From NCBI GenBank assembly GCA_937951485.1, contig CALEDJ010000038.1, positions 62,001-126,000 of the forward strand: 64,000 bases of DNA, written 5' to 3'. How positions within the stretch are numbered: the stretch's first letter is position 1; each line of letters opens with the position of its first letter. The notes beneath the pieces are model-generated. The model was not told where the DNA came from and made no database searches. It worked only from the letters and a program-made list of their open reading frames with translations. This document shows positions 20,843 to 62,427 of this stretch, piece after piece. The DNA comes from an uncultured bacterium. Lineage in GTDB: Bacteria > Hydrogenedentota > Hydrogenedentia > Hydrogenedentales > CAILVY01. Both the position numbers and the translations under genes were made by a program.

Positions 20843-21877
20843 TTACGGCAGCATGCCCGCAGCCAGACTGTCCATCTCCCACAACGCGGCACGCGCCACG
20901 CTGGCCAGGGCCATATGCCCGCTGCCCGCCGCCTGCGTGTACGCTTCGCGGGCGCGTTCGATGTCCCGCAGGTCCCGCCAATACATATCGCCCAGCGCAA
21001 CATTGATTTGGGCGATCGCCACGGGGTCGGTGCATCGGTCCCGGACAAACTCCATGGCGTCAATGCGCGTTTCCGGCGCCGCGCTGTCTTCCGGGCCGCA
21101 CAGGCGCTCGCGCATCGTCTCGATAGCCAGCGAAGCCACCAGTTTGCACGGATACTTCGCCACCACCTTCTCCAGTTGCGCAAAGGCGTCGCCGCCGCTG
21201 TTGCGGGCGGCGTCAAACTGGTACAGCGGCTCGAAATTCTCCAAGCGCGCCTCCGCGAGCAGGTCATAGCGGTCCTTCACCGCGCCGGGACTGGTGTTCC
21301 AATCCTGTGGATACCGACTGCGCAGCGCGTCGTAGGCGGCGAAGGCTTCTGCATAGCGCTGTCCATGGCTGAACTCCAGGTTTGCCAGCAGCAGTTGCGC
21401 TTCGCCCGCGCGCGGGTCACTCGGGTGTGCCTGAATCGCCTCGCGCAGCGTCAACACCGCCTTGCCGAACTGCTGTCCGGACTGTTCCATCGCCGCCGCA
21501 ATCGCGGCGTCCATCGGCGATGCCGTCGCAACGGTCGCCACATCAGGACCCGACATGCCGCGGCCATCCCACGCGGTGTATCCGAAAATGGCCGCCAGCA
21601 TGATGCAGGCCGCCACAGGCAACGCCACGCGCCACCCGGCCCATGCGGACCGCGCGGGCGCTTCCATCAGTCGTTGCCGCACCACGGGCAGCAAATCGCC
21701 CGTGAACGGGGCGGGCGGCACGGGGATCGCTCCGGCCACGCGCGGCAGCGATTCCGCTTCTGCGCGACAGGCCGCACATGCGGTCATGTGTCGCGCAAGA
21801 TACGCGCGTTCTTCCGCCGAAGCGTCATCATAAATGGACGCGGCGATGATTCCTCTCGCTTTTCGACACCCAAACAT
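20843..21877 (-). CDS. Zinc-finger anti-sigma factor with TPR-like C-terminus
   Basis: A 344-residue protein. The N-terminus has the anti-sigma zinc-finger motif H-x3-C-x2-C (ARHMTACAACRAE). A transmembrane helix (about 85-105) follows, and then a helical, tetratricopeptide-like periplasmic domain. It lies 125 bp after an ECF sigma gene on the same strand, the usual sigma/anti-sigma layout. It would hold the sigma factor at the membrane until a signal acts on the outer part. The start at 21877 has GAGGAA about eight bases upstream; the frame is open earlier. Confidence 0.8.
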   Translation of the reverse strand: MFGCRKARGIIAASIYDDASAEERAYLARHMTACAACRAEAESLPRVAGAIPVPPAPFTGDLLPVVRQRLMEAPARSAWAGWRVALPVAACIMLAAIFGYTAWDGRGMSGPDVATVATASPMDAAIAAAMEQSGQQFGKAVLTLREAIQAHPSDPRAGEAQLLLANLEFSHGQRYAEAFAAYDALRSRYPQDWNTSPGAVKDRYDLLAEARLENFEPLYQFDAARNSGGDAFAQLEKVVAKYPCKLVASLAIETMRERLCGPEDSAAPETRIDAMEFVRDRCTDPVAIAQINVALGDMYWRDLRDIERAREAYTQAAGSGHMALASVARAALWEMDSLAAGMLP

Positions 21878-22001
21878 GTCTGATTCCTCATTGGATTTAT
21901 GAGGCATTTGCGAAACGGGTGTTCCGGACCTCAGTTCCATCTAAAATCGCGGATATTTCATGCTCCCATGCCCACAAACAGTTCATTTCGCAAATGCCTA
22001 T

Positions 22002-22604
22002 TCATGATTCGGGATCGTACAAATCCCGTAGTTCTCGCTGGAGTTTCTTCAACGATCGGAACAGATGCACCTTTACGCTGCCCACGGTGCACCCCAGTTG
22101 TTCCGCGATTTCCGCCAAAGCCAGACCCTCATAATGCCGCAATACAAACACCGTTTTCTGCGTGGGCGAAAGCACATCCAACGCCGCGCGCACGCGCGCG
22201 TCAATCTCCCGGCCACGCACCTCCGCCGCCGTCCCCGGCACCGTCGGCTCCACCGCCGCGCCTTCCGTTTCCGGAAGGAACGCCTCATCCAGCGGTTCCT
22301 GGCGGTGCCGTCGCCGCCGCCGCAGATGATCAATCGCCTGGTTCGCCGTCAACCGCAACAACCACGGCAGGAAACCGCCCGTCGGCTGCCACGACCCAAT
22401 CTTGCGGTACAACTTGATCAGGGCTTCCTGCGCCACATCCAACGCGTCCTCGCGGTTGCCCGTGAGCCGGTACGCTACGGCGTACACCCGGCCCTGATGA
22501 CGACGCACCAACTCGTCGAAGGCGCGCTCATCGCCGCCTTTCAGCGCCAGCGCCAGCGCCTTGTCGTCCGACGCCGCAACATTTTTCTCGTTTTCTCGAA
22601 CCAC
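22002..22604 (-). CDS. ECF-type RNA polymerase sigma factor
   Basis: A sigma-70 family protein of about 200 residues. Region 2 is visible from AFDELVRRHQGRVYAVAYRL through WLLRLTANQAIDHLRRR. Region 4 runs from LSPTQKTVFVLRHYEGLALA through the helix-turn-helix GCTVGSVKVHLFRSLKKL. There is no region 3, as expected for ECF sigmas. The start is uncertain: GTG at 22604 or 22601 is suggested, while GTG at 22652 would add 16 residues. Its neighbours are the cognate anti-sigma factor and the secretion cluster, which it may control. Confidence 0.88.
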   Translation of the reverse strand: MVRENEKNVAASDDKALALALKGGDERAFDELVRRHQGRVYAVAYRLTGNREDALDVAQEALIKLYRKIGSWQPTGGFLPWLLRLTANQAIDHLRRRRRHRQEPLDEAFLPETEGAAVEPTVPGTAAEVRGREIDARVRAALDVLSPTQKTVFVLRHYEGLALAEIAEQLGCTVGSVKVHLFRSLKKLQRELRDLYDPES

Positions 22605-22689
22605 TTGACCTAACGCCTTCCCGAAACAAAAGGTTAACAGGCGCCCCCGCACCCTTCCGCACGCCGCCTATTGTACACGCTCGGCGTAA

Positions 22690-22743
22690 AAGGACATCAA
22701 GGACGGCAAGGACAACAAGGACGATCAGGACAGCAAAGGGACT
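22690..22743. repeat. 9-bp-period AAGGACNNC array
   Basis: Five consecutive 9-bp units are visible: AAGGACATC, AAGGACGGC, AAGGACAAC, AAGGACGAT, CAGGACAGC, then a degenerate AAAGGGACT. The array fills the gap upstream of the sigma factor gene. It has the same period and the same GGAC core as the CGGACNNNT arrays at 3943 and 59020. Confidence 0.85.
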
Positions 22744-22792
22744 GATGACCACTGGCCGCGGTCAGCAAACTGACCGATTCACTACCGACGCC

Positions 22793-23677
22793 TCAGCGGT
22801 CCGTAGCGTTGCCCGGGGGGTGCATCTCATTCCCCTCCGGTTTCCGGCGGCGCATGAGCGCGCGGGCCTCCGCGACAAAGCGGGCGAACAGGGCATTGAC
22901 ACGCGGTTCCTCGGTCCGCATCCGTTCGGGGTGAAACTGCACTCCCAGAATGAACACATCGCCCTCATGCTCGATGGCTTCGACAATACCATCATCGCTA
23001 CGGGCGGAAATGCGCAGCCCTTCGCCCAGTTTTTTGACGGCTTGGTGATGATGGGTGTTCACCTTGATCCGCGTCACGCCCAACAGCGCGTGCATCAATG
23101 TACTTTCCTCGATGGTGATGTCATGATGCTTCGATCCGCCGCGATGCGTAACCGCCTCGCCGCCAATCGGCCCGAATTGTGCGGGGATGTCCTGGTAAAG
23201 CGATCCGCCGAAGAATACATTGATCACCTGATGGCCGCGGCAGATGCCCAGCACGGGCAATCCATGTTCGCGGGCGTGATCCAACAAGTCGAATTGGAGG
23301 CGGTCAAGCGGCAGGTCCACTTCCTCCAGTTTCTCATGGGGTTCCTCGCCATAGAACGCGGGGTCCACATCCACCCCGCCGGGAAGCAGCACACCGTCAA
23401 GCATCGCCTTGCGCGCTGCAATATCCGCCGGGTCGCACGAAGGCGAGAAAACGATCACTTCAGCGTCATACTCATCGAGGGCCGCGCGATACAATGCCAA
23501 TGGATCGTTCTTGCCGCCCTGAAGCGCCTCCATCTGCCCAGTCGTGTACACCAGCGCAATGCCCGGCGCTTCGGCAACGGCCAGCGCGGCGAGGAAAAGC
23601 GCCAAGCCGGGACACGTTATTTTACGTATGAACAAATCCTTCGTTTCCTGATTTGTTTTATAAATAAACGAATTCAC
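22793..23677 (-). CDS. Exported class I glutamine amidotransferase-like hydrolase (peptidase C26)
   Basis: A protein of up to 294 residues in the gamma-glutamyl hydrolase/PuuD family. The nucleophile is C146 in GICRGHQ; the catalytic pair is H249 and E251 in VQFHPER. Family members cleave gamma-glutamyl bonds. An extra N-terminus (ITCPGLALFLAALAVAEA) looks like a signal peptide, so the enzyme is probably periplasmic, unlike typical cytoplasmic PuuD. The GTG at 23677 overlaps the upstream stop codon (GTGA); a TTG at 23632 would start directly before the signal peptide. It is coupled to the secreted BNR_4 protein. Confidence 0.8.
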   Translation of the reverse strand: MNSFIYKTNQETKDLFIRKITCPGLALFLAALAVAEAPGIALVYTTGQMEALQGGKNDPLALYRAALDEYDAEVIVFSPSCDPADIAARKAMLDGVLLPGGVDVDPAFYGEEPHEKLEEVDLPLDRLQFDLLDHAREHGLPVLGICRGHQVINVFFGGSLYQDIPAQFGPIGGEAVTHRGGSKHHDITIEESTLMHALLGVTRIKVNTHHHQAVKKLGEGLRISARSDDGIVEAIEHEGDVFILGVQFHPERMRTEEPRVNALFARFVAEARALMRRRKPEGNEMHPPGNATDR

Positions 23678-25068
23678 CGCAACAATCGGGGTTGTTCGCG
23701 GTCCTCGGTCATGGTGTAGGGCAATTCCCAGACGTGGCTGCCGTCCCGGTTGGTGAAATAGAGATGTGATTCGGAGAATTCATCGGGATTGCCGTCGGCC
23801 CAGAAGGCGTAGAAATCGGGATGGGCGTTGACGGGCCGGCGCGCATACGCGTGATTGCGTGGGCTGTTTTCGGTGATCTGCCGCACTTTTTTCCAGGTGA
23901 CGCCATGGTCATGGCTGTGCCACAGGGCCATCTCACCGCCTGTTCCCCAACGCTGCGGGCCGGGTTCCGTCGGCGCGATGATGCGCCAGGGGCCTTCTTT
24001 CTCGATGTACAGCGAACCCATGTCGTAGTTGTGCGTGGAACGTGTTACCTCGTGAGAATCCCACGAGGCGCCGTTCCAATGGACAATCAGCCAGGTGCGC
24101 GGGTCGTTTTCAGGACCCGGCTGATGCCCGCCGCTGGTGACGATGAGCATGACCGGCCGCCTTGCGTCGTCGAAATTGATGTCTTTGACATAGACCAGGC
24201 GACTTTCCGCCGCGAAATCGCGCACCAGCGCCGGGTTCTGCACATCTTCCAACGGCGTGGTCACGACTTCGCCGGCGGCGGTCCGCCAGGTCTCCCCGAA
24301 ATCGCTCGTTTCAACGTAATAGAGGTTGGTCCGCTTGTCCACATTGCCGCCGGGATGATAATTGAATGCTGTAATCACGCGGCCATCCTTTTCCCGGCTG
24401 ACCTGGTAATGGCCGCCCATGCCCGCGAGTTTGCGGTCCTCGGTCCAGATGCGGCCGTCGGCGCTTGTCGCCCAATACAACTCACGGCCCTGGGTGTACT
24501 TGGTGAAACAGAGGAGGAAACCCTTCCCGGCGATAAACCAAGGCTGGGGATAGGTCAATTCCCGTTCCCGGATGCGCTCAAAGGCATTCACGCTGTACGG
24601 CGCGACGCTGCGATACAGGAAACCGGGACGGCGGCGGCCGCGTCCGCTGACAAAGACCCACACATGCCCGTCCTCGGCCAGCGCGATGCTGGGGTTGTCG
24701 TGGGGATCGTTCACGCCTTCCTTGTCGTGGACGATGGTGGGTCGCGGCACGGTCCCCGTAGCATGGTCATACGCGGAGGCCATCATCAGCAGATGCCGTT
24801 CCTGCGGACTTCGCGTGCCGCCATAAACGAAAAAGGTTTTGTCCGCCTCCGGCGTATACACCGCCAACGGGATGTGCTTGGCGGTATAGGTGCCCAGTCC
24901 GCCGGAGTATTTGTCGCCATGCTCCGAAAACTGGCCGAGGGTGAACCAGATGCCCTTGTATCCGTCCGCCTTGTCATCGTTGATGACGGTTTCTGTAGGT
25001 GCCGGCGCGGCGCCGATAACGGCCAGGAGGCACACATGCGCCATGATAAGATTGCGGCAATGATTCAT
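23674..25068 (-). CDS. Secreted BNR_4-type sialidase/lyase-like protein
   Basis: A 464-residue exported protein. A short signal peptide (LIMAHVCLLAVIGAAPAPT) precedes a seven-bladed-propeller-like BNR_4 region: GYKGIWFTLGQ, a conserved DPHDNPSIALAEDGHVWVFVSGRG and several S-x-D-x-G-x-x-W Asp-box-like turns (TSADGRIWT, TSDFGETWR, SHDHGVTWK). BNR_4 proteins include ulvan-type polysaccharide lyases and putative neuraminidases, so a role in algal or mucin glycan breakdown is plausible. Catalytic residues cannot be assigned by eye. The start at 25068 has GGAGG eight bases upstream. It overlaps the C26 hydrolase gene. Confidence 0.75.
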   Translation of the reverse strand: MNHCRNLIMAHVCLLAVIGAAPAPTETVINDDKADGYKGIWFTLGQFSEHGDKYSGGLGTYTAKHIPLAVYTPEADKTFFVYGGTRSPQERHLLMMASAYDHATGTVPRPTIVHDKEGVNDPHDNPSIALAEDGHVWVFVSGRGRRRPGFLYRSVAPYSVNAFERIRERELTYPQPWFIAGKGFLLCFTKYTQGRELYWATSADGRIWTEDRKLAGMGGHYQVSREKDGRVITAFNYHPGGNVDKRTNLYYVETSDFGETWRTAAGEVVTTPLEDVQNPALVRDFAAESRLVYVKDINFDDARRPVMLIVTSGGHQPGPENDPRTWLIVHWNGASWDSHEVTRSTHNYDMGSLYIEKEGPWRIIAPTEPGPQRWGTGGEMALWHSHDHGVTWKKVRQITENSPRNHAYARRPVNAHPDFYAFWADGNPDEFSESHLYFTNRDGSHVWELPYTMTEDREQPRLLR

Positions 25069-25201
25069 CTGACGAGCCTCCATGCGGTTTGGCTGGATAC
25101 CCCTCTAACCCCTGTGTAACGCGAATGGAACACAGAATGCAAATTGCGGGCGTAATGTCTTCGCCTTCGTCTATGGGGTATGATGGGCATGCGGCAGAGA
25201 A

Positions 25202-27418
25202 GTGGACGACAGAACCCATTGGCTGACAAGAGTGCGTGTGAACACAAGCGAGCATCCAAAGAACGCCGAACCGCCAACCGGTCCGAAAGGATTTTGGGAG
25301 CGGCATGCCTGGCGGATACTCGTGCTTATCCTGCTGGCGGCGCTGGCATTGCGGCTGGCGTATCTGCGCGAAATCGTCGCGTCGCCGACGTTCACATACG
25401 CCGTTTATGACCCGCAATACAACGACTATTGGGCGCGGGGGCTGGTGACGGACGACTGGACCGTGCCGGAAGGCGTGAATGATCCGGAGATTCGCACGAC
25501 GCCCTATGGGCGACCGCCGGGCTATCCGTTTTTCCTCGCGCTGGTCTATCGCGTCTTCGGACTGAATTACCTCGCGCCGCGTCTGGTGCAGATGTATCTG
25601 GGTCTGATCAGCGCCGTGCTGCTGTTTGTTTTGGCGCGCGGCATCTTCGGCGCGGCGACAGCGTTGCTCGCGGCAGTGTTTTTCTCATGCTACTGGGTGT
25701 TTATTTATTTCGAGGGCGTGCTCACCTATCCCTCCGTGGTGGTGTGCCTGCTGCTCCTTATCATGATCGCGATTTCGGCGTGGTTACGGCAGCCCCATGC
25801 CGGCCGCGCGGTCATCGTCGGGCTGCTGATGGGTCTGTTCGCGTTGTTCCGGCCCAATGGATTGCTCTACGTGCCGGTGTTGGTCGTCTGGATGGGGTGG
25901 ACTTTGCGGCACCCGGACGCGCATTCCGGAGAATCCGTCAAACGGCCCGGCGTACAGCGGGCCTTCCGGCGGTCGGTCGCGGCGTTGGTGCTCGGGGTTG
26001 TCGTGCCGTTGGTGCCGGTGCTGGTGAGAAACTACGTCGTGGCCGGCGATTTCGTTTTCCTTTCTTCCTACGGCGGCTTGAATTTCTATGTGGGCAATCA
26101 CGCGGGGGCCGGCGGGGTGGAACCGCGGATTCCCGAACTGCCCGAACTGGCGGGCATCGAGAACTGGTCCTGTTTCGATTACCCGGCGATAGTGCGCGGC
26201 CTTGCTGTAAATATGGGCAGGGAGCACATCCGTTTTTCCGAGGCCAACGCTTATTTCTACCGAAAAGCCCTTGATTTCATCCGCCACGATCCCGTCGCAT
26301 TCCTGAAATTGACCGCGAAAAAAGCGTTGCTGTTCTGGGGACCGCGGGAAATCACCAACGACACCGTCTTGGAATGGGACAAGCGGCATTCGCCGCTGCT
26401 GCGTTGGCTGCCGGGATTCCCCTTCGCGCTGGGGACCTTTCTGTCCGGACTGTTGCTCTTTCTCCGTGACATGCGCATGGGCCGCACGCTTCCGCGCCCC
26501 GAATCACGCGCGACGGCTTGCGCCGCACTGTTGTTCATCGGCGCGTATTTCGTTTCCGTCGTGCCCTACTTCATCGCGGGGCGCTACCGCGTGCCGGTCA
26601 TCCCGTTCATGCTGTTGTTCAGCGCGTACGGCGCGCAGCGCATCGGGGCGATGGCGGCGGCGCGACAGTGGCGACAATGCACGCTGTGGCTGGGCGCGGC
26701 GGGCGCGCTGGTGGGGGTGTCATTCTGGAATCCCATGGGCTACGCACCATCCGAGGCGACATGGCATTTTCATCAGGCGATGGCGTACGCCGCGCGCCAG
26801 GATTGCCCGGCGGCCGCCGAACACTACCGGGAATGCATCGCCCTTGACCCCGCCAACGCCGCCGCACACAACAATCTCGGACGCATCCATTCGCGCCTGG
26901 GCGAACACGATGCCGCGCTGGCACTGTTTCAAGAGGCGCTGCGCCTGCGTCCGCAAGACCCGACCATCCGGAACAACCTCGGTTTTGAATTGCAGCAACT
27001 TGGCCGCACGGCTGAGGCTGTGGAGGAGTATGAGGCGGCGCTGCGCGCCGCGCCCCGGGCATATCTGCCGCGCGCCAATCTCATCAACGCGCTGACGGCG
27101 CTGGGCCGCGCCGACGAGGCCCTGCGACACGCCGCCGTCCTGCTGGAAACATATGGCCACACCGCCGCCGCGCAGAACGCCTGCGGGTATGCGTTCGCGC
27201 GCGCAGGCCGCGCCGAGGAGGCCGTGATGCGCTTCCGAGAAGCACTCCGCATCAACCCCCGCTTTGTCCCGGCGTGGGTCAACCTCGGCATGGCGCTGGA
27301 AAGCCTGGGGCGACGCGAGGAAGCCGCAGACGCCTACACGCAGGTTCTTGATCTGGAACCCACAAACGCCCACGTGCAGGAACGTCTGCGCGTCCTGCGA
27401 GCACAACTATCACCTTAA
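25202..27418 (+). CDS. GT-C membrane glycosyltransferase with C-terminal TPRs
   Basis: A 738-residue polytopic protein. About ten hydrophobic helices fill residues 38-500, with an acidic first loop (YDPQYNDYWARG) and the segment RPPGYPFFLALVYRVFG, hallmarks of the GT39/PMT-like GT-C superfamily. Such enzymes use polyprenyl-phosphate sugars and act on the periplasmic side. From about residue 520 to the end there are at least five TPR units (NAAAHNNLGRIHSRLGEHDA; PAWVNLGMALESLGRREEAA). The start at 25202 is a GTG; a GTG ten codons later is possible. The stop overlaps the convergent toxin-antitoxin remnant. It opens the surface-glycan region. Confidence 0.8.
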   Translation: MDDRTHWLTRVRVNTSEHPKNAEPPTGPKGFWERHAWRILVLILLAALALRLAYLREIVASPTFTYAVYDPQYNDYWARGLVTDDWTVPEGVNDPEIRTTPYGRPPGYPFFLALVYRVFGLNYLAPRLVQMYLGLISAVLLFVLARGIFGAATALLAAVFFSCYWVFIYFEGVLTYPSVVVCLLLLIMIAISAWLRQPHAGRAVIVGLLMGLFALFRPNGLLYVPVLVVWMGWTLRHPDAHSGESVKRPGVQRAFRRSVAALVLGVVVPLVPVLVRNYVVAGDFVFLSSYGGLNFYVGNHAGAGGVEPRIPELPELAGIENWSCFDYPAIVRGLAVNMGREHIRFSEANAYFYRKALDFIRHDPVAFLKLTAKKALLFWGPREITNDTVLEWDKRHSPLLRWLPGFPFALGTFLSGLLLFLRDMRMGRTLPRPESRATACAALLFIGAYFVSVVPYFIAGRYRVPVIPFMLLFSAYGAQRIGAMAAARQWRQCTLWLGAAGALVGVSFWNPMGYAPSEATWHFHQAMAYAARQDCPAAAEHYRECIALDPANAAAHNNLGRIHSRLGEHDAALALFQEALRLRPQDPTIRNNLGFELQQLGRTAEAVEEYEAALRAAPRAYLPRANLINALTALGRADEALRHAAVLLETYGHTAAAQNACGYAFARAGRAEEAVMRFREALRINPRFVPAWVNLGMALESLGRREEAADAYTQVLDLEPTNAHVQERLRVLRAQLSP

Positions 27419-27699
27419 AGCCAGTTGGCGACTCTCAATCCCGCAACGTGCCGGAATTCCCGCTCGTTGTTGGTGACCAGCACTGCGCCCTCCGCCACGG
27501 CATGCGCCGCTCCCAGCAGGTCCATCGGCCCAATCACCCCGCCCGCGCGCTCCAGCGCCTCCCAGCCACGCTCCGGTGGAAAAATCATCACCACGTCACG
27601 CACCTTGGTGATACACACCTCGTCCGAAGAAAACCGGTGTTCTTTGAGCAGGCGCACCGCCTGGCTGCCGCCATTGAGGAAGACCTTGGCTTTTTTCAC
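27415..27699 (-). pseudogene. VapB-VapC hybrid remnant (internal deletion)
   Basis: A 94-codon frame joins the first half of a VapB antitoxin to the last third of a VapC toxin. Residues 1-51 match the AbrB-like VapB pattern (KAKVFLNGGSQAVRLLKEHR, then DEVCITKVRDVVMIFPP and WEALERAG). Residues 55-94 match the end of a PIN domain (IGPMDLLGAAHAVAEGAVLV, then TNNEREFRHVAGLRVANW). The VapB tail and the first 90 or so residues of VapC, including the catalytic aspartate of the LLDTN motif, are missing. The GTG start at 27699 has AGGAG seven bases upstream and a promoter-like site, so it may still be expressed. No toxicity is expected. Confidence 0.75.
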
Positions 27700-27795: not shown

Positions 27796-28653
27796 ATGAA
27801 CGGACACATTTATACAAGCGCCAACCAGCGGGAGTGGCTGCGGGTGCTTCCCGACCTCGTCCGGGCGCGGGAACTGCTGCGCGATCTGATCTGGAAAGAC
27901 CTTCGCGCGCGGTACCGCTATGCCGTGATGGGATTCCTGTGGGCTGTTCTGGAACCCCTGGCGTTCACGCTGATCCTGGCATTCGTGTTTTCGGTTCTGC
28001 TGGCGGACAAGGCGGCGTTCTTGCGCCCCGACAACGGGCCGCCGTTCACGACGATGCTCTTGAGCGGGTTGATCTTCTGGCAATTCACGGCGACGGCGCT
28101 GGCGAGCGCAACGTTTTCGCTGGTGATCAACCAGAATCTTGTGAAAAAGGTGCATTTCGCGCGGGAGACCGTCCCGTTGGCGACGGTATGCGTGCCGCTG
28201 GTGAATCTTGGCGTGGGCTTCCTGTTGCTGCTGGGGGTGCATGTGCTGCTGGGCGGACGGCTGCATCCCGCACTGGTCTGGGTGCTGCCGGTGTTCGGCA
28301 TCCAATTCTCCCTGACAGCGGGATTGGCGCTGATCTTTTCCAGCGCCCATGTGCACTTTCGCGACGTGGGGAACATGGTCAATGTCGCCATTCTCTTCGG
28401 TTTCTACGCCTCGCCGGTGTTCTATCCGCTGGAGCGGGTGACCCAGTCCGGCGTGTTGCCGGCGTGGGCGGTGCATGCTTATCTGCTGAATCCCATGGCG
28501 GGACTGCTGACCGCCTACCGGCAAATCCTGTTTGACGGCCATTTCCCGGACTGGACGCTCCTGCTGTGGCCCGCCATGTTGGCGGGGCTGGTGCTTGTCG
28601 GCGGATCATGGCTTTTCCGGCGCGCAGCGCCGACCTTTTCGGATTACCTGTAA
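27796..28653 (+). CDS. Polysaccharide ABC exporter permease (Wzm/TagG family)
   Basis: A 285-residue ABC-2 type membrane protein. The N-terminal segment LLRDLIWKDLRARYRYAVMGFLW is the typical amphipathic lead-in of Wzm, KpsM and TagG permeases. About six transmembrane helices follow, ending with FRRAAPTFSDYL, where family members end in a similar F-x-x-xx-xFAD/Y phrase. It exports completed lipid-linked glycans with its ATPase partner. The ATG at 27796 is supported by the family start; an upstream open frame is the antisense of the vapB remnant. The stop overlaps the start of the ATPase gene (TAATG). Confidence 0.9.
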   Translation: MNGHIYTSANQREWLRVLPDLVRARELLRDLIWKDLRARYRYAVMGFLWAVLEPLAFTLILAFVFSVLLADKAAFLRPDNGPPFTTMLLSGLIFWQFTATALASATFSLVINQNLVKKVHFARETVPLATVCVPLVNLGVGFLLLLGVHVLLGGRLHPALVWVLPVFGIQFSLTAGLALIFSSAHVHFRDVGNMVNVAILFGFYASPVFYPLERVTQSGVLPAWAVHAYLLNPMAGLLTAYRQILFDGHFPDWTLLLWPAMLAGLVLVGGSWLFRRAAPTFSDYL

Positions 28654-30737
28654 TGCCCATCATCGAAGTGGACCATGTGACCAAGGTGTTCCCGGCGCGG
28701 CGCGGCGCGCGCGACATCCGGGGACGCGGCGGTCTGGCCGACTGGATTCGCGGACGGAAGACGGAGACGTTCGAGGCGCTGAAAGATATCAGCCTGTCGG
28801 TCGAGCGTGGGGAATCGCTGGGCATCATCGGTCGGAATGGCTCCGGAAAAAGCACCCTGCTCAGCCTCATCGCGGGGGTAACACTGCCCACACGCGGCAC
28901 GGTCACCGTTCGCGGGCGCGTCGCCTCGTTACTGGAACTGGGCGCCGGCTTTCATCCCATCCTGACCGGACGCGAGAATGTTTATCTGAATGCCGGCCTG
29001 CTCGGCATGCGCCGCGCGCAAGTGGACGAAGTTTTTGACCGTATCGTGGCGTTTTCAGGCATCGCTGAATTCATTGATCAGCCGGTCGAAACCTACAGCA
29101 GCGGCATGTATGTGCGCATCGGTTTCGCCGTGGCCGCTCATGTCAACCCCGATGTTTTTCTCGTGGACGAGGTCCTGTCCGTCGGCGACGAGGAATTCCA
29201 GCGCAAATGCCGCGCGCGCATCAGTGCGTTGCGCGAAGAAGGCAAGACCATCGTCTTCGTCTCGCATGATCTCGGTATTGTGAACACCCTCTGCGACCGG
29301 GTGGTGCTCCTGGACAAGGGCCGGATGGTTCTGCGCGAGAGCGCGCGCAAGACCATCAGTTTCTATCTGCGCCAGGTCGGCCGCGAACGCGGCGTGCACA
29401 CCTTCGCCGCAGGTCCCCTGGAGGCCATCCTCTGCGAAGGCCGTATCTCACTCTTCCACAATCAGGAGGAACTCACCGCGCCGGATGGCTTCGCCATGTT
29501 TGTCCAATCGCTGGGGCGCCTGCACGCCTCGACGGAAGCGGATTGGGTTCTGACCCGGCGTGACCCTGACGGTTGCACCGCCGAGGGGCGCATGATGCGC
29601 CTGCCCCTCAAATACTTCTGGGACCTTCAACTCACCCCCGACCGTCTCACCTGGCACATCGCCGTGGAGTGCGAACGCGAAACGCCCATGAACAGCCTCG
29701 ACGTACGGCTCACCCTGACCACCGCGTTCACCCGTTGGATGTTGGGCGACTTGTCGGGGGTTTTCCCGGAAATCCGTCCCTCAGACACCCTCTGGAACAT
29801 GCTCGTGTGGCCTTCGGACACGCCCCTCGACGATACCCGCGCCGCCATCCTGCCGGAGGAGGAAAACGAAGCCGTTCCCCGCCTGATCTTCCGCACCACC
29901 CCGCTGCGGCCGCATTTCAACCTCTACTGGGTGAACTCCGACTATGCCGCCTACTGCCGGATTCTGTTCATTCACACCCGATTCCCCGACAAGGACGCCG
30001 GACTGCCTCCCGGTCGCCATGAACTGCTGCGTGTCGAGATTGAGCCGGCGGCGGGTCGGGACCTCCTGTGGCGACGCCTCTCCCCCGACCGGACCATCAG
30101 CGCCGGAAAAGTGTCCGCTTGTTTCGAGCGTGGCTGGCTGAAACTGGCCTACGACGGCCGCGAAATCACCGCGCTTATCCATGTCTTTTCCTCAATGCTT
30201 GTACAACACCTCTGGAACGACAGCCACACATTGCATTGGGGCGAGGTGCAGAATGACGGCCGATGCCTGCGCGTCAGCGGCGAGTCGCGCCGTTTCCCGT
30301 TTTTCCAGCATTGGGAAGCGGAGGCGCGCGAAGACGGCATTTTTCTGCGCATATGGCTGGAGGCGGTCGAAGCGCTGGACGCCCAGGAATACCAGGCATC
30401 CGTAGTGCTGTTACCGGAGTACAGGGCGTGGCGTTCCGACTACGAGGAAGGTGTGTTCCCGCCGTTTGACGCCAAAGCCGACAAATGGCGGCATCTGAAT
30501 AAGATCTACCTCCCCGGCAAACGCCTCAGCGCCTTGAGTTCCACGTTACCATCTGTTACGCTTGAGGTTACAAACGACGCAATGCAGTTCCGAATGACCC
30601 CGATCAACACCCGGCGACAAGAAAACGCCCGGGTATTGCAGGCTTTGTGTTCCTCGGAATCGGGTGTCTTTCATTTCGATCGCGGGCGGCATCTCATCTT
30701 TGAAGGAATGATCCGGATAGCGCCCCCAGGGAGTTGA
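28653..30737 (+). CDS. Wzt-like ABC exporter ATPase with duplicated C-terminal module
   Basis: A 694-residue protein. Residues 1-245 are a Wzt/TagH-type ATPase: Walker A GRNGSGKS (60-67), signature YSSGM (148-152), Walker B FLVDE (169-173) and switch histidine H205. Wzt proteins usually add a glycan-binding domain of about 180 residues. Here the C-terminal part is about 440 residues and appears to be two tandem copies (about 256-465 and 485-690) of one module. Matching anchor points are the E-L/I-TA turn, a central W, C308/C538, the RLP/RFP step and W323/W554, and both end in an RH-L motif (455-458; 679-681). I do not recognise the module. It probably binds the exported glycan, by analogy with Wzt. 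Confidence 0.85.
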   Translation: MPIIEVDHVTKVFPARRGARDIRGRGGLADWIRGRKTETFEALKDISLSVERGESLGIIGRNGSGKSTLLSLIAGVTLPTRGTVTVRGRVASLLELGAGFHPILTGRENVYLNAGLLGMRRAQVDEVFDRIVAFSGIAEFIDQPVETYSSGMYVRIGFAVAAHVNPDVFLVDEVLSVGDEEFQRKCRARISALREEGKTIVFVSHDLGIVNTLCDRVVLLDKGRMVLRESARKTISFYLRQVGRERGVHTFAAGPLEAILCEGRISLFHNQEELTAPDGFAMFVQSLGRLHASTEADWVLTRRDPDGCTAEGRMMRLPLKYFWDLQLTPDRLTWHIAVECERETPMNSLDVRLTLTTAFTRWMLGDLSGVFPEIRPSDTLWNMLVWPSDTPLDDTRAAILPEEENEAVPRLIFRTTPLRPHFNLYWVNSDYAAYCRILFIHTRFPDKDAGLPPGRHELLRVEIEPAAGRDLLWRRLSPDRTISAGKVSACFERGWLKLAYDGREITALIHVFSSMLVQHLWNDSHTLHWGEVQNDGRCLRVSGESRRFPFFQHWEAEAREDGIFLRIWLEAVEALDAQEYQASVVLLPEYRAWRSDYEEGVFPPFDAKADKWRHLNKIYLPGKRLSALSSTLPSVTLEVTNDAMQFRMTPINTRRQENARVLQALCSSESGVFHFDRGRHLIFEGMIRIAPPGS

Positions 30738-30742
30738 CGTTC

Positions 30743-32080
30743 ATGGACCCGGTAACCGCGGAAAACGCCGTGGGCGCGGATTGCCCGAACCCCATCGCCG
30801 CAGCATCCGCTGCGCCCTTGCAAGTCGCGCATGGATGCCGGAAAACCACGCGGCGCGTGCTTACCCGGCGCGGGGTGATGTGGCTCGGCCAGACCTGCAA
30901 TCTTCGCTGCTACTTCTGCTACTTCATTGACCGCATCGAGGACCACAAGCATCCCGAGCACGCGTTCATGACCCTCCAGAAAGCCAAGCAAATCTGCAAG
31001 GCGCTGCGCGAGTTCTACGGCAACACCGCCATTGACATCCAGGGCGGCGAGCCGACCATCCACAAAGAAATCCTGGAACTTATCCGCTACTGCCGTGAAA
31101 TCGGCCTGATTCCCACCCTCATCACCAATGGCCTGATCCTGGGAAAGCCCGGCAAACTGGAGGAATTCCGCGACGCGGGCATCCGCGATTTCCTGGTCAG
31201 CCTCCATGGCATCGGCGAACTGCACAATGAAGTCGTGCGCGTGAAAGGCGCCTACGAGAAAATCATCGCGGCCATCGAGCGCATGCGCGCCCTCGACATC
31301 CCCTTTCGCTTCAACTGCACCATGTCCAAGCCGGTGATCCCCGTGCTGACGCAGGTCGCCCAGAAGGCGATTGATTACGGGGCGCTTGTCGTCAACTTCA
31401 TCGCGTTCAACCCTTTCAGCGACCAATTCGGGCATCGCCGCGCCGACACCGTCGCCCGCTATGCCGATATCAAACCGGAACTCACCCGTGCGATGGACAT
31501 GCTGGAGGCGGCGGGCATCGAGGTCAATGTGCGCTATCTCCCCCTGTGCATGGCCGAAGAGCGCCACCGCAAAAACTTCTTCAACTTCCAGCAACTTTCC
31601 TACGACATCCACGAATGGGATTACCAGAGTTGGCTCTGGACCATGATGATGACCCAGATGATGCGGGACGGCAACCCCTCGCCCCTGTTCCGACTCGGTC
31701 CCGGCGCAAGCCGCATCTACAAGGGCGGCGCGATGCGCATCCGCGACAACTACGAGAAACATCCGCTGCGGCAGGGAGTGAAATTCGCCGCGCAGCGCGC
31801 CCTGGCGCGCATCTATCAGGCGGCGCGCGGCATGCCCGCCGTCTATCGCGAGGAAGCCCGCCGCCGCGCCGAGCACGACTGCGGCTACAAATACGCGGAG
31901 GCTTGCCAATCGTGCGCGGCCCGGAACATCTGTGACGGATTCCACGGCGATTACGCCGAATTCTTCGGAACCGACGAGGCCCGGCCCATCACCGGCATCG
32001 CGCCCATTGACGACCCGCTCCACTATATCCGCAACCAGGAAAAAGTCGTCTTTCCCGAGGATGCCTCCTGGGCGCTGTGA
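30743..32080 (+). CDS. Radical SAM protein with SPASM-like C-terminus
   Basis: A 445-residue radical SAM enzyme. The cluster loop is CNLRCYFC (C52, C56, C59), followed by the GGEP motif (101-104) and further TIM-barrel strands. A cysteine-rich C-terminus (C380, C388, C391, C397) resembles SPASM or twitch auxiliary-cluster sites. Such enzymes modify peptides, carbohydrates or nucleotide substrates by radical chemistry. The ATG at 30743 has GGGAG upstream; a TTG overlapping the ATPase stop is an alternative. It follows the exporter genes within 6 bp and shares clear similarity with the next gene. The substrate is unknown. Confidence 0.88.
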   Translation: MDPVTAENAVGADCPNPIAAASAAPLQVAHGCRKTTRRVLTRRGVMWLGQTCNLRCYFCYFIDRIEDHKHPEHAFMTLQKAKQICKALREFYGNTAIDIQGGEPTIHKEILELIRYCREIGLIPTLITNGLILGKPGKLEEFRDAGIRDFLVSLHGIGELHNEVVRVKGAYEKIIAAIERMRALDIPFRFNCTMSKPVIPVLTQVAQKAIDYGALVVNFIAFNPFSDQFGHRRADTVARYADIKPELTRAMDMLEAAGIEVNVRYLPLCMAEERHRKNFFNFQQLSYDIHEWDYQSWLWTMMMTQMMRDGNPSPLFRLGPGASRIYKGGAMRIRDNYEKHPLRQGVKFAAQRALARIYQAARGMPAVYREEARRRAEHDCGYKYAEACQSCAARNICDGFHGDYAEFFGTDEARPITGIAPIDDPLHYIRNQEKVVFPEDASWAL

Positions 32081-32193
32081 ACGACACAGGACGCTATTTG
32101 GAAAGCGCATGAGGGAAGGGAGTCGCGGGGGGATTGGCGTATTGGGGGGCGGGTTGTTGCACAATAACAAGGCTCTTGCAGGACTTCCGTGGC

Positions 32194-32233
32194 ATGGGCG
32201 TATCGCCCATAAAACACGGGCAGGATGCCCGTG
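32194..32233. repeat. Paired short palindromes
   Basis: Two nearly adjacent perfect palindromes occupy the gap before the next gene: ATGGGCG-TAT-CGCCCAT (32194-32210) and CACGGGCA-GGA-TGCCCGTG (32215-32233). They lie within an open frame continuous with the downstream gene, but look like dispersed intergenic repeats, not coding sequence. Confidence 0.65.
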
Positions 32234-32280
32234 CTCTATTGGATAACGGAAGGTTCTGCAAAAGCCTCTTATGGCAGGAC

Positions 32281-34650
32281 ATGAACGCATATTCTGAGAT
32301 GGACCAACCCTTGCATCCCACGCGCGGGCTGATGGCCACGCACGACGCGCATGGCCGTCCTTTCGACCTGACAGACCTCAAGAAGTGGCTTCGACTGCAT
32401 GCGGTCGTGTTCCACACGGAAAAGATAGACGTGCGCCCTGCAGGCGAAGGCGTCCGCCTGCTGCCCGCGCTGCTGGATTTCGCCCGTCAGAACGGCGTCC
32501 GGCTTTCCCTGCGCACCGATGGAACCCACGATCCCGTCATGCTGCCCGCATTGGCCGAGGCCGGGCTGCTGGACGTATTCTGCGCCATGCCGGCCTGCGA
32601 CGGCGGCCTCATCGCCCGATGGGCGGCAGCCTGTGCGGACGCCGGGCTGGCGTTGCGGGTGCAAATCGGCGCGCCGCTGCCCGAACAAGAGAACATTGAA
32701 GCCGCCGTGAAACGTCTGGCCGGGGCCGCCGTGGTGAACATCACGCTCCATGATCCCTTTGCGCCCGCGCCGCCGTTGCGGGGCGAGACCGCATCCGCCG
32801 CCCTGCGGAACATGAACGCGCTGGCGCGCGCGCTGGATGCGCGCGGCGTGGAAGTCAACCTCCTGCATGCGCCGTTTTGCCTGATCGCGGAAGAGAACCG
32901 GCCACATGTCGTCAACTCGGCGCAATTTTTCCTTGACCATCAGCACTATGACCGGCGCGCTTATGATTTTGCAGTCAACATCCACGCGCGCGGCCCAAGG
33001 CGGCTGGGCAAGGCCGTCGAAAACATGCTCAGCCGGGGAATGGCCGTGGACAGCCCTTTCCACCATAGCGTGCTCCCGTGGCTGCTGCATCATCCCCTTC
33101 TTCTTATGCGTCTGTGGGTCTTGCATCAACTGACGCGGCATCTTCAGTTGCTGCGGGGTCCGCGCCCGCTGCCGGAGACCGTCGAGGAATGGGAAGCCGC
33201 GATTGAAGCCCACCGCAGGCGCCACCGCAGGAACCTCGGCCCCGTCTGCGCCGCGTGCCGCTTCCAGCGCATCTGCGACCACGCCCCGGAGGAATTCCGC
33301 CGCCGATACCCCGACCTCCAGATCGCCGCCGTGCCGGGCGAAGAAGTGATATCGCCTTTCCATCTCATGCGGGGGCGCAAGCGTTATTATGACGCAGTGG
33401 ATGCCGCGCGCCGGGAACTGCCGAAAATCCAGGAGGCATTGGCCGAGGAAGCGCGCCGCATCACCCTGCGCGAAGCGCCCACCCGTGAAATCACCGCCGA
33501 TCACTACGAGATTGAGAACCATTACACCCACCACATGCCCGGCGCGGTGCGCTGGCTTTCCTTTCTCAACGTCGAACACTGCAGCACGCCGCTGGCGCGA
33601 CTCACCCCGCCCTTCACCATGCAACTCACCTTCGGCGGCGGCATCGCCGGGCACATCGGCTTCAGTTTCGGGCGTCACGCCAAGATTCTCTGCCCGATGG
33701 TGGACTATTCGCACCGTCTCACGCTGCACGTGGATGAATTCGGGCGCTACGTTCTGCTGCGCGACGGCGTCCTCGTGCGTCCAACCGAGTTCGAGGGCGC
33801 GCGCTGCCTGCCTCCTCGCATCGGCGACAACGTCGAACCGCGCATCTGTATCCATAACATAGACGGGTTCCTCCTCACGCAGACCCTGCTGCTCTGGGAA
33901 GGCCGCCGCGACGCCGACGGCGCCCTCGCCGAACATGTCCCCGAAATGACAAGGATCAAATATTCCGTCGTCATCATCTGCACGCGTTACACGCGGCGAC
34001 TTCAGGCGACGCTCCTCGGGCTGGCCCATCAGCGCGGCTTCGACATGCGCGCCCTCGAAGTTGTCATCGGCTATGTGCCCGGCATTGACGCTACCGACGA
34101 CCTCATTGACAGCATGCGCCGCGCCTGCCCCGAACTGCGCATCGTCCGCATGCCCTTCTCCGAAGACCACGTCCGCGCCAAGGGATTCATGATCAACGAG
34201 TCGCGGCGCATCGCCGCCGGCGACTGGATCGTCCTGCTCGACGCCGACATCATCCTCCCGCCCGATTTCTTCGTCCGCATGGAGACCCTTGGGGAAGACG
34301 CGCGCTTCGTCGCGCCCGACGGCCGGAAAATGCTCACGCCCGATGACACGGCCCGGGTGCTGCTCGGTCGGATTCGGCCTTGGGAATGCTTTGAGGAACT
34401 GGCTGCCGGCGCGGGCGAATACCGCTTCCGCGAGGCCGACCGCGTGCCCATCGGCTTCTGCCAGTGCGTGCGCCGGGATATTCTGGAAAAGATTCCCTAC
34501 CATGAACGGGATCACTTCGAGGCGTCCGACTGGTGGTTCGGGCATTGCGTCATCAAGGAATACGGCCCCGAAACCCGACTCGAAGGCGTTGTCGTCCTCC
34601 ATCTCGACCACGGCGGCAGCCAATGGTACGGCGCTTTCAAGCACATGTAA
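32281..34650 (+). CDS. Pseudo-radical SAM protein fused to GT2 glycosyltransferase
   Basis: A 789-residue protein in three parts. Residues 1-370 are a paralogue of the preceding radical SAM protein. They share GVEVNLLHAPFCLIAEE (GIEVNVRYLPLCMAEE in the partner) and the terminal CAACRFQRICDH (CQSCAARNICDG), but the cluster loop CxxxCxxC and the GGEP motif are absent. Residues about 405-545 are a beta-rich domain I cannot name. Residues about 560-789 are a family 2 glycosyltransferase with YSVVIICTRY, the DAD motif (654-656) and a late FEASDWWFGH. The start at 32281 is the first after the palindromes; 32299 and 32332 are alternatives. The fusion suggests glycosylation of the product of the active partner. 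Confidence 0.8.
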   Translation: MNAYSEMDQPLHPTRGLMATHDAHGRPFDLTDLKKWLRLHAVVFHTEKIDVRPAGEGVRLLPALLDFARQNGVRLSLRTDGTHDPVMLPALAEAGLLDVFCAMPACDGGLIARWAAACADAGLALRVQIGAPLPEQENIEAAVKRLAGAAVVNITLHDPFAPAPPLRGETASAALRNMNALARALDARGVEVNLLHAPFCLIAEENRPHVVNSAQFFLDHQHYDRRAYDFAVNIHARGPRRLGKAVENMLSRGMAVDSPFHHSVLPWLLHHPLLLMRLWVLHQLTRHLQLLRGPRPLPETVEEWEAAIEAHRRRHRRNLGPVCAACRFQRICDHAPEEFRRRYPDLQIAAVPGEEVISPFHLMRGRKRYYDAVDAARRELPKIQEALAEEARRITLREAPTREITADHYEIENHYTHHMPGAVRWLSFLNVEHCSTPLARLTPPFTMQLTFGGGIAGHIGFSFGRHAKILCPMVDYSHRLTLHVDEFGRYVLLRDGVLVRPTEFEGARCLPPRIGDNVEPRICIHNIDGFLLTQTLLLWEGRRDADGALAEHVPEMTRIKYSVVIICTRYTRRLQATLLGLAHQRGFDMRALEVVIGYVPGIDATDDLIDSMRRACPELRIVRMPFSEDHVRAKGFMINESRRIAAGDWIVLLDADIILPPDFFVRMETLGEDARFVAPDGRKMLTPDDTARVLLGRIRPWECFEELAAGAGEYRFREADRVPIGFCQCVRRDILEKIPYHERDHFEASDWWFGHCVIKEYGPETRLEGVVVLHLDHGGSQWYGAFKHM

Positions 34651-61732: not shown

Positions 61733-62427
61733 GCATCCGACCCTTCCAGCGCGCTCAGGAGGTTGCCCAGCAGGGTTTCGAGGCGGGCGTCCACGTGCAT
61801 CCGTTCGGATTCCACGATACAACCTCCGGGCGACACGGAATCCGACGCCTGGACTTCGAGGATGTCAACGCCTGGAAAATCCTCCAACAGGCGTATCTTC
61901 CGGGCGCGCAGCGCCTCCAGGTCGGCGGGATGCACCCGCACCACGAGCCGCTGTCGGTCGGCGATTTTCTCCAGGGCGCGCCGGACCGTATTGTGGATGA
62001 GTTCGGGGTCTTCGCGTGATTCGCGCGCGAGAATCCGCCGCACGATCAGCGCCGTCAACTCGATCACCTGCGGCGTGAGCGATGCCAGAAATTCCTCACG
62101 CGCCCTGCGAATCGCCTCAGCGGCGCTTTCCAGGGCCGCGGCCGACTGCGCCACCGATTGCGCAAAGTGGTCGCGGCCGGCTTCCATGCCGCGCTCAAAG
62201 GCCTCGGCGTAGGCTTCCTGAATCTTCTGGGCCGCTTCTTCACGCGCTTCGGCCAAAACCGCGCGGCGTATGGCTTCGGGATCGGTGTAGTCGGGACGCG
62301 TCGGATCACCGATGGGTGCAAGATCGAGCCGGGGCGCTTCCCGGGGCGGGAATTCCTCCAGCGTGTCGGTTGCGACACGCACGGCAGCGCGCCTGTGCGC
62401 GCCATCCACCTTAATGACCCTCTCCAT
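61714..62427 (-). CDS. fliH: Flagellar assembly protein FliH
   Basis: A 237-residue regulator of FliI. The centre is a coiled coil with many Ala, Glu and Arg residues (IRRAVLAEAREEAAQKIQEA), and the C-terminal domain matches FliH/V-ATPase E-like subunits (LTALIVRRILARESRED; VVRVHPADLEALRARK; ILEVQASDSVSPGGCIVES). It overlaps fliI by 19 bp and follows fliG after about 50 bp. Confidence 0.88.
   Translation of the reverse strand: MERVIKVDGAHRRAAVRVATDTLEEFPPREAPRLDLAPIGDPTRPDYTDPEAIRRAVLAEAREEAAQKIQEAYAEAFERGMEAGRDHFAQSVAQSAAALESAAEAIRRAREEFLASLTPQVIELTALIVRRILARESREDPELIHNTVRRALEKIADRQRLVVRVHPADLEALRARKIRLLEDFPGVDILEVQASDSVSPGGCIVESERMHVDARLETLLGNLLSALEGSDACPPSV

Follow-up and report, generated by a model that had tools for sequence, protein, structure and literature searches.

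Why would the genes of a polysaccharide exporter be followed by those of two radical S-adenosylmethionine (SAM) proteins, one of them apparently active and the other degenerate and fused to a glycosyltransferase? This question is raised by four genes in a stretch of 64,000 nucleotides (positions 62,001 to 126,000 of contig CALEDJ010000038.1, assembly GCA_937951485.1; hereafter the window), which belongs to the 4.5-Mb genome, in 77 contigs, of an uncultured bacterium of the order Hydrogenedentales. The genes encode a Wzm-type permease, a Wzt-type ATPase, an active-looking radical SAM enzyme (called rSAM here), the closest named relatives of which occur in Ca. Hydrogenedentota metagenome-assembled genomes, and a paralogue of rSAM which is dead as a radical SAM enzyme and carries a glycosyltransferase family 2 (GT2) domain (called PSGT here). 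With a probability of roughly 0.6, we take them to be part of an order-wide module which assembles and exports a surface glycan carrying a radical-modified sugar.

The four genes run head to tail on the + strand. The Wzm stop codon and the Wzt start codon overlap by one base (TAATG, 28651-28655), the rSAM ATG at 30743 is located 5 nt past the Wzt stop, and rSAM is separated from PSGT by a gap of about 200 nt holding an inverted-repeat element. This layout and the gene identities, which the original prediction had proposed from visible motifs, are borne out by the coordinates and by Pfam matches (PF01061, PF00005, PF04055, and PF13641). The features of the locus are the following:

27796-28653, + strand: Wzm-type ABC-2 permease (ABC, ATP-binding cassette), 285 aa (PF01061, 51.7 bits, cutoff 26.9)
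28653-30737, + strand: Wzt, 694 aa
28653-29372, + strand: Wzt ATPase domain, residues 1-240 (PF00005, 73.7 bits; best PDB and NCBIfam matches of the TagH/Wzt type)
29373-30071, + strand: Wzt C-terminal domain 1, galactose-mutarotase-like (VIA Z 18.1, root mean square deviation [rmsd] 3.0, 208 residues aligned with the aldose 1-epimerase 3nre)
30072-30737, + strand: Wzt C-terminal domain 2, a second copy of domain 1 (VIA Z 17.6, rmsd 3.2, 194 residues aligned with the beta-galactosidase domain 3bga)
30743-32080, + strand: rSAM, apparently active radical SAM enzyme, one auxiliary cluster predicted (PF04055, 79.1 bits, cutoff 29.5; alternative start TTG 30734)
30896-30919, + strand: CX3CX2C SAM-cluster motif of rSAM (C55, C59, C62; CNLRCYFC), invariant in 36/36 sequences
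31547-31549, + strand: C272 of rSAM, likely the fourth auxiliary-cluster ligand, invariant in 36/36
31904-31933, + strand: CX2CX5C auxiliary-cluster motif of rSAM (C391, C394, C400), invariant in 36/36
32281-34650, + strand: PSGT
32281-33480, + strand: pseudo-radical-SAM domain of PSGT, boundary approximate (hhalign to rSAM; CX3CX2C in 0/45)
32878-33276, + strand: auxiliary-cluster cysteines of PSGT (C200, C323, C326, C332), all four present in 37/45
33481-33945, + strand: middle beta-rich region of PSGT, low-confidence model (conserved across the order; predicted strands, predicted local distance difference test [pLDDT] mostly below 50)
33946-34650, + strand: GT2 (GT-A) domain of PSGT (PF13641, 43.1 bits, cutoff 27)

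The assignment of rSAM to the Radical SAM superfamily is based on the match to PF04055 above the cutoff and on the CX3CX2C motif. Since this motif and the residues C272, C391, C394, and C400 are invariant, also in an alignment of 18 sequences spanning several phyla, the enzyme is predicted to carry the SAM cluster and one fully ligated auxiliary cluster. The rSAM of the window has no Pfam match to the SPASM domain (PF13186), although its CX2CX5C motif is invariant. The best solved relatives identified by profile are PqqE, SkfB, and the cytosylglucuronate decarboxylase BlsE, all matched in the core alone. The combination of a CX3CX2C core and a CX2CX5C auxiliary motif is that of the SPASM/twitch enzymes (PqqE, SkfB, BlsE, and anSME), whereas the C-terminal part of rSAM is distinct and has a single predicted auxiliary cluster. 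Since no NCBIfam equivalog reaches its cutoff, the substrate of rSAM cannot be read from a family name.

The PSGT gene most likely starts at ATG 32281, since homology begins at about residue 6-7 from this codon and the frame opened by TTG 32134 crosses the intergenic repeat. The claims that the fourth protein is a paralogue of the third and that its radical SAM domain is dead both hold: profile-profile alignment of its N-terminal part with rSAM (hhalign probability 97.9, E 3.5e-13) covers most of the length, from past the SAM loop almost to the end, with C272 opposite C200 and the two CX2CX5C motifs opposite each other, and the CX3CX2C motif is absent from all 45 PSGTs aligned. The domain is homologous to rSAM by descent and is not an active radical SAM member. 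A dead radical SAM family has been described previously (TIGR04347, pseudo-SAM/SPASM); the active rSAM matches it weakly (67-74 bits), far under the cutoff of 525, whereas PSGT has no NCBIfam match and is fused to a glycosyltransferase. The GT2 domain scores above the PF13641 cutoff, its D[AS]D motif and D750 are present in 45/45 PSGTs, and its model superposes on the GT-A enzyme 9jn3 (VIA Z 22.7, rmsd 2.3, 195 residues aligned). In the PSGT model, only the GT2 domain and the N-terminal alpha/beta part are usable, and the fold matches cover only residues 556-780. From its motifs, we read PSGT as incapable of SAM chemistry and as having an intact transferase site.

The retention of four far-apart cysteines in the absence of a SAM site suggests that selection acts on the cluster, and most PSGT lineages appear to be under selection to keep a metal site, which would hold an Fe-S cluster. 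The CX2CX5C motif is missing in the other 8 of the 45 PSGTs, most of which are found in a second genomic setting described below. PSGT homologues share 26-92% pairwise identity across the order, and permeases with 24-71% identity are found in the loci of relatives; since homologues occur across the order, the frames are not due to chance.

How widely is this set of genes distributed? Among 68 genomes of the order, PSGT was identified in 63, the Wzt tail in 58, and rSAM in 48 (one further rSAM gene, in G052, is cut by a contig end), and all three markers are present in 44. Many of the assemblies being fragmented, the linkage counts are lower bounds: Wzt and rSAM lie within 5 kb of each other in 35 of the 45 genomes having both (34 on the same strand), rSAM and PSGT in 21/47 (all on the same strand), and Wzt and PSGT in 25/57 (22 on the same strand). 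Sets which are split remain coupled: in G027 and G035, Wzm is beside rSAM and Wzt beside PSGT, and in G062, Wzm-Wzt are located on one contig and rSAM-PSGT on another. In the genomes nearest to the window (G001 and G002), PSGT is carried by another contig than the Wzt-rSAM pair. In the second setting, PSGT often lies 3' of at least one other radical SAM gene and 5' of a glycosyltransferase family 4 (GT4) gene and a gene encoding a protein of about 160 aa. Over both settings, the three genes 3' of PSGT include a GT4 gene in 18/47 cases, and a conserved protein of about 160 aa is encoded there in 16. The genome of the window itself carries a second PSGT copy (L062, 8609-10981, on contig 17 of G000), the neighbors of which are three more radical SAM genes, a GT4 gene, and a gene for a protein of about 160 aa; this copy does not have the auxiliary CX2CX5C motif.

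Outside the order, a profile search of 386 genomes yielded PSGT in only one genome, G100, which belongs to another phylum and in which Wzm is followed by Wzt, rSAM, and PSGT, as in the window. Its Wzt tail is shorter, as is the N-terminal part of its PSGT, which shows no match to the query. The link between exporter, rSAM, and PSGT expected by the original prediction is therefore supported by the co-occurrence and linkage counts and by the gene order in G100. The rSAM gene by itself was found in 9 of the 149 genomes of the class of G090, all of them belonging to one family, where it lies near GT2 genes, often together with a second radical SAM protein of 297 aa; a search for these rSAM genes on plasmids gave no plasmid match. 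A zinc-ribbon methyltransferase is encoded close by in five loci of this family, and four Hydrogenedentota loci have a homologue next to rSAM or Wzt. In G302, rSAM is flanked by two GT2 genes, and in the distant genome G200 (L201, 9404-10891) a GT2-like region, assigned by eye from its motifs, precedes an intact radical SAM domain in one fusion cut by the contig end. Since the midpoint root of the rSAM tree falls on the very long, truncated row L201, this tree was used solely to note that the rows from outside Hydrogenedentota, L201 excepted, group together. Radical SAM proteins of about 297 aa with a CxNxCSNC motif are encoded near rSAM in several loci of the G090 family (L162, L195, L196, L197, and L199; also L192 and L198), and show weak Pfam and no NCBIfam matches. 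The locus L053, on a contig titled Rhodothermaeota, contains a Hydrogenedentota-type Wzt gene, a methyltransferase gene, and two rSAM genes; it clusters with Hydrogenedentota in the rSAM tree and is probably from a misnamed bin.

Do the active and the dead protein work as a pair? The original prediction had coupled them; what stands is their frequent linkage, while an obligate pairing is weakened by about a dozen genomes which have PSGT and Wzt and lack this rSAM family, and by the PSGT genes located elsewhere. Obligate partnership was rejected: a profile search of the 15 PSGT-carrying genomes without an rSAM hit gave no full-length member of the rSAM family, some weak matches looking like generic radical SAM proteins. 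Because of these dozen genomes, the rSAM step may not be universal or may be performed by another enzyme. The same genomes, together with the frequent location of PSGT in a separate glycosyltransferase cluster and the loss of the auxiliary cysteines in 8 of the 45 PSGTs, would fit a conventional ABC-dependent locus for O-antigen or capsule, to which particular lineages have added rSAM and PSGT as decorations; the N-terminus of PSGT would then be a recruited, non-functional scaffold, with no cooperation between the two SAM proteins. We regard this account as unlikely, though it deserves serious attention, in view of the paralogy of rSAM with the N-terminal domain of PSGT, the joint retention of four cysteines despite the loss of the SAM site, and the frequency with which the two genes are linked.

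What is the product recognized by the exporter? An ABC-2 permease gene adjoining the gene of a Wzt/TagH-type ATPase places the transporter in the Wzm/Wzt type of glycan exporter, and its Wzt is unusually long, the C-terminal 450 aa or so matching no Pfam family. The tail was modeled with AlphaFold2 (AF2) at a mean pLDDT of 90.7 and its two halves are homologous to each other (hhalign probability 99.8, E 1.2e-29), so that according to the models it is a tandem pair of galactose-mutarotase-like domains, with a fold of the sugar-binding type, and not the usual Wzt_C. Domain 2 is the half which is also present in other phyla, and G100 and G109 match this half only. The Wzt_C carbohydrate-binding domain, which is found only in some Wzm/Wzt exporters, gave no Pfam match in the tail, which makes a standard Wzt less credible and does not affect the proposal that the protein works like Wzt. 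In known O-antigen exporters, the Wzt tail is the place of the glycan-recognition domain. By analogy, the position of the present tail in the exporter argues for its binding a glycan, which the shared fold alone would not imply. The best solved relatives of the tail include aldose 1-epimerases (Z about 17-18), and it might act on the glycan enzymatically, as an epimerase or mutarotase; however, non-epimerase domains of glycosidases and lyases resemble the fold just as closely, and the duplicated tail is fused to an ATPase at the very place of the recognition domain, so we judge an enzymatic tail to be rather improbable. As in Wzm/Wzt O-polysaccharide export and in TagGH (PDB 8dku), an ABC-2 permease is combined with an ATPase having a C-terminal extension, and in the PDB, the ATPase best matches transporters of this kind; the differences are that the extension is a tandem mutarotase-like pair here and that rSAM and PSGT are frequent partners.

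Peptides are the substrates of many SPASM-type radical SAM enzymes. A modified peptide, which the original prediction had left open beside a sugar, would imply that rSAM matures a ribosomal peptide which is then glycosylated and exported, as in mycofactocin, where the radical SAM product of MftC is glycosylated by MftF (PMC7491314). Both pathways combine a radical SAM enzyme with a glycosyltransferase, and a GT2 protein of the wider neighborhood matches MftF, albeit below the cutoff. However, no precursor peptide was found here: in 35 rSAM loci, no conserved small open reading frame (ORF; 20-110 aa, within 2.6 kb of rSAM) was detected outside the main genes. The most widely shared small-ORF matches, common to three loci, lie antisense inside the methyltransferase gene, and the others are common to two loci only. 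The locus further differs from mycofactocin by its exporter and by the fusion of a dead radical SAM domain to GT2. With no precursor-like ORF in these loci, a pathway to a ribosomally synthesized and post-translationally modified peptide was rejected. Moreover, rSAM scores far under every NCBIfam maturase cutoff (mycofactocin, 47 versus 265 bits), and its partners are glycosyltransferases, a methyltransferase, and a glycan exporter. We therefore consider a peptide product very improbable. Since the exporter, the transferases, and the methyltransferase all point to a glycan, we take a glycan to be the product and a sugar to be the probable substrate.

The proposed module might operate in the following order. 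The rSAM enzyme would act by radical chemistry on the growing lipid-linked glycan or on a sugar nucleotide, and PSGT would add a sugar via its GT2 domain. The dead domain of PSGT, having lost SAM chemistry and presumably kept a cysteine-ligated auxiliary cluster, would most likely shape a binding site for an rSAM-type substrate. Further GT4 and GT2 enzymes would complete the chain, as would the zinc-ribbon methyltransferase in some lineages, and the tandem tail of Wzt would bind the glycan in the cytoplasm and license its export through Wzm. A more specific proposal is that rSAM and PSGT work as a pair in which rSAM makes an unusual sugar by radical chemistry (on a glycan or a sugar nucleotide), that PSGT recognizes this modified sugar by its Fe-S cluster and links it into the chain, and that the Wzt tail checks the chain before export; radical chemistry would then be built into the export of the surface polysaccharide. 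We put this forward tentatively, as a possibility on which we are more doubtful than about the module, because of the dozen genomes with PSGT and Wzt and without the rSAM family; the chemistry, the substrate, and a physical rSAM-PSGT partnership are likewise conjectural. Several observations weigh against the module itself. Besides these genomes and the PSGT genes often located away from the exporter, no gene for sugar-nucleotide synthesis was identified within the cassette, the SPASM-like and beta regions of PSGT are modeled with low confidence, its cysteines could bind zinc instead of an Fe-S cluster, and the Wzt tail could be catalytic instead of a binding module.

The surroundings of the cassette include the following features:

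25202-27418, + strand: PMT_2-type glycosyltransferase with a tetratricopeptide repeat (TPR) tail, a possible upstream partner (PF13231, 40 bits)
27415-27699, - strand: ORF of 94 aa between the PMT_2/TPR gene and Wzm (PF01850, 23.8 bits, cutoff 23.6)
32190-32240: inverted-repeat element in the rSAM-PSGT gap

The sister genus G001 likewise has the PMT_2/TPR gene 5' of Wzm and in the same orientation, with one further radical SAM gene lying between them. The match of the 94-aa ORF is confined to the end of the PIN domain, and the N-terminus of the ORF, read by eye, is VapB antitoxin-like; the ORF looks like a toxin-antitoxin remnant fused through a deletion. The inverted-repeat element reads GGGCGTATCGCCC, then CACGGGCAGGATGCCCGTG; its second palindrome has six copies in the genome with at most one mismatch, and the reversed control gave 0. 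The first gene 3' of PSGT encodes an M19 dipeptidase on the opposite strand. Ordinary neighbors occupy the - strand from 20843 to 25083: a TPR protein with a zf-HC2-like start, an extracytoplasmic function (ECF) sigma factor, a C26 glutamine amidotransferase, and a BNR-repeat protein.

As for the description of the system as hitherto undescribed, the exporter type is already known; beyond this, no paper in the open-access collection searched was found to tie radical SAM enzymes to Wzm/Wzt export, to Hydrogenedentes or to flagellin glycosylation, or to report a mutarotase-like Wzt tail. The cysteine pattern of PSGT, the tandem mutarotase-like tail of Wzt, and the rSAM-glycosyltransferase neighborhoods outside the phylum are new here. 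As a pseudoenzyme which has lost the catalytic cluster and would have kept the second one, PSGT would allow the role of an auxiliary cluster to be tested apart from SAM chemistry, and the rSAM homologues in a second bacterial family, known from near-complete genomes, may allow testing beyond uncultured bacteria. If the present interpretation is true, PSGT would define a further glycosyltransferase family, whose predicted iron-sulfur cluster would stem from a dead radical SAM enzyme, the Wzt tail would represent a novel recognition domain in glycan-exporting ABC transporters, and a whole bacterial order would build a surface glycan with a radical-chemistry step.

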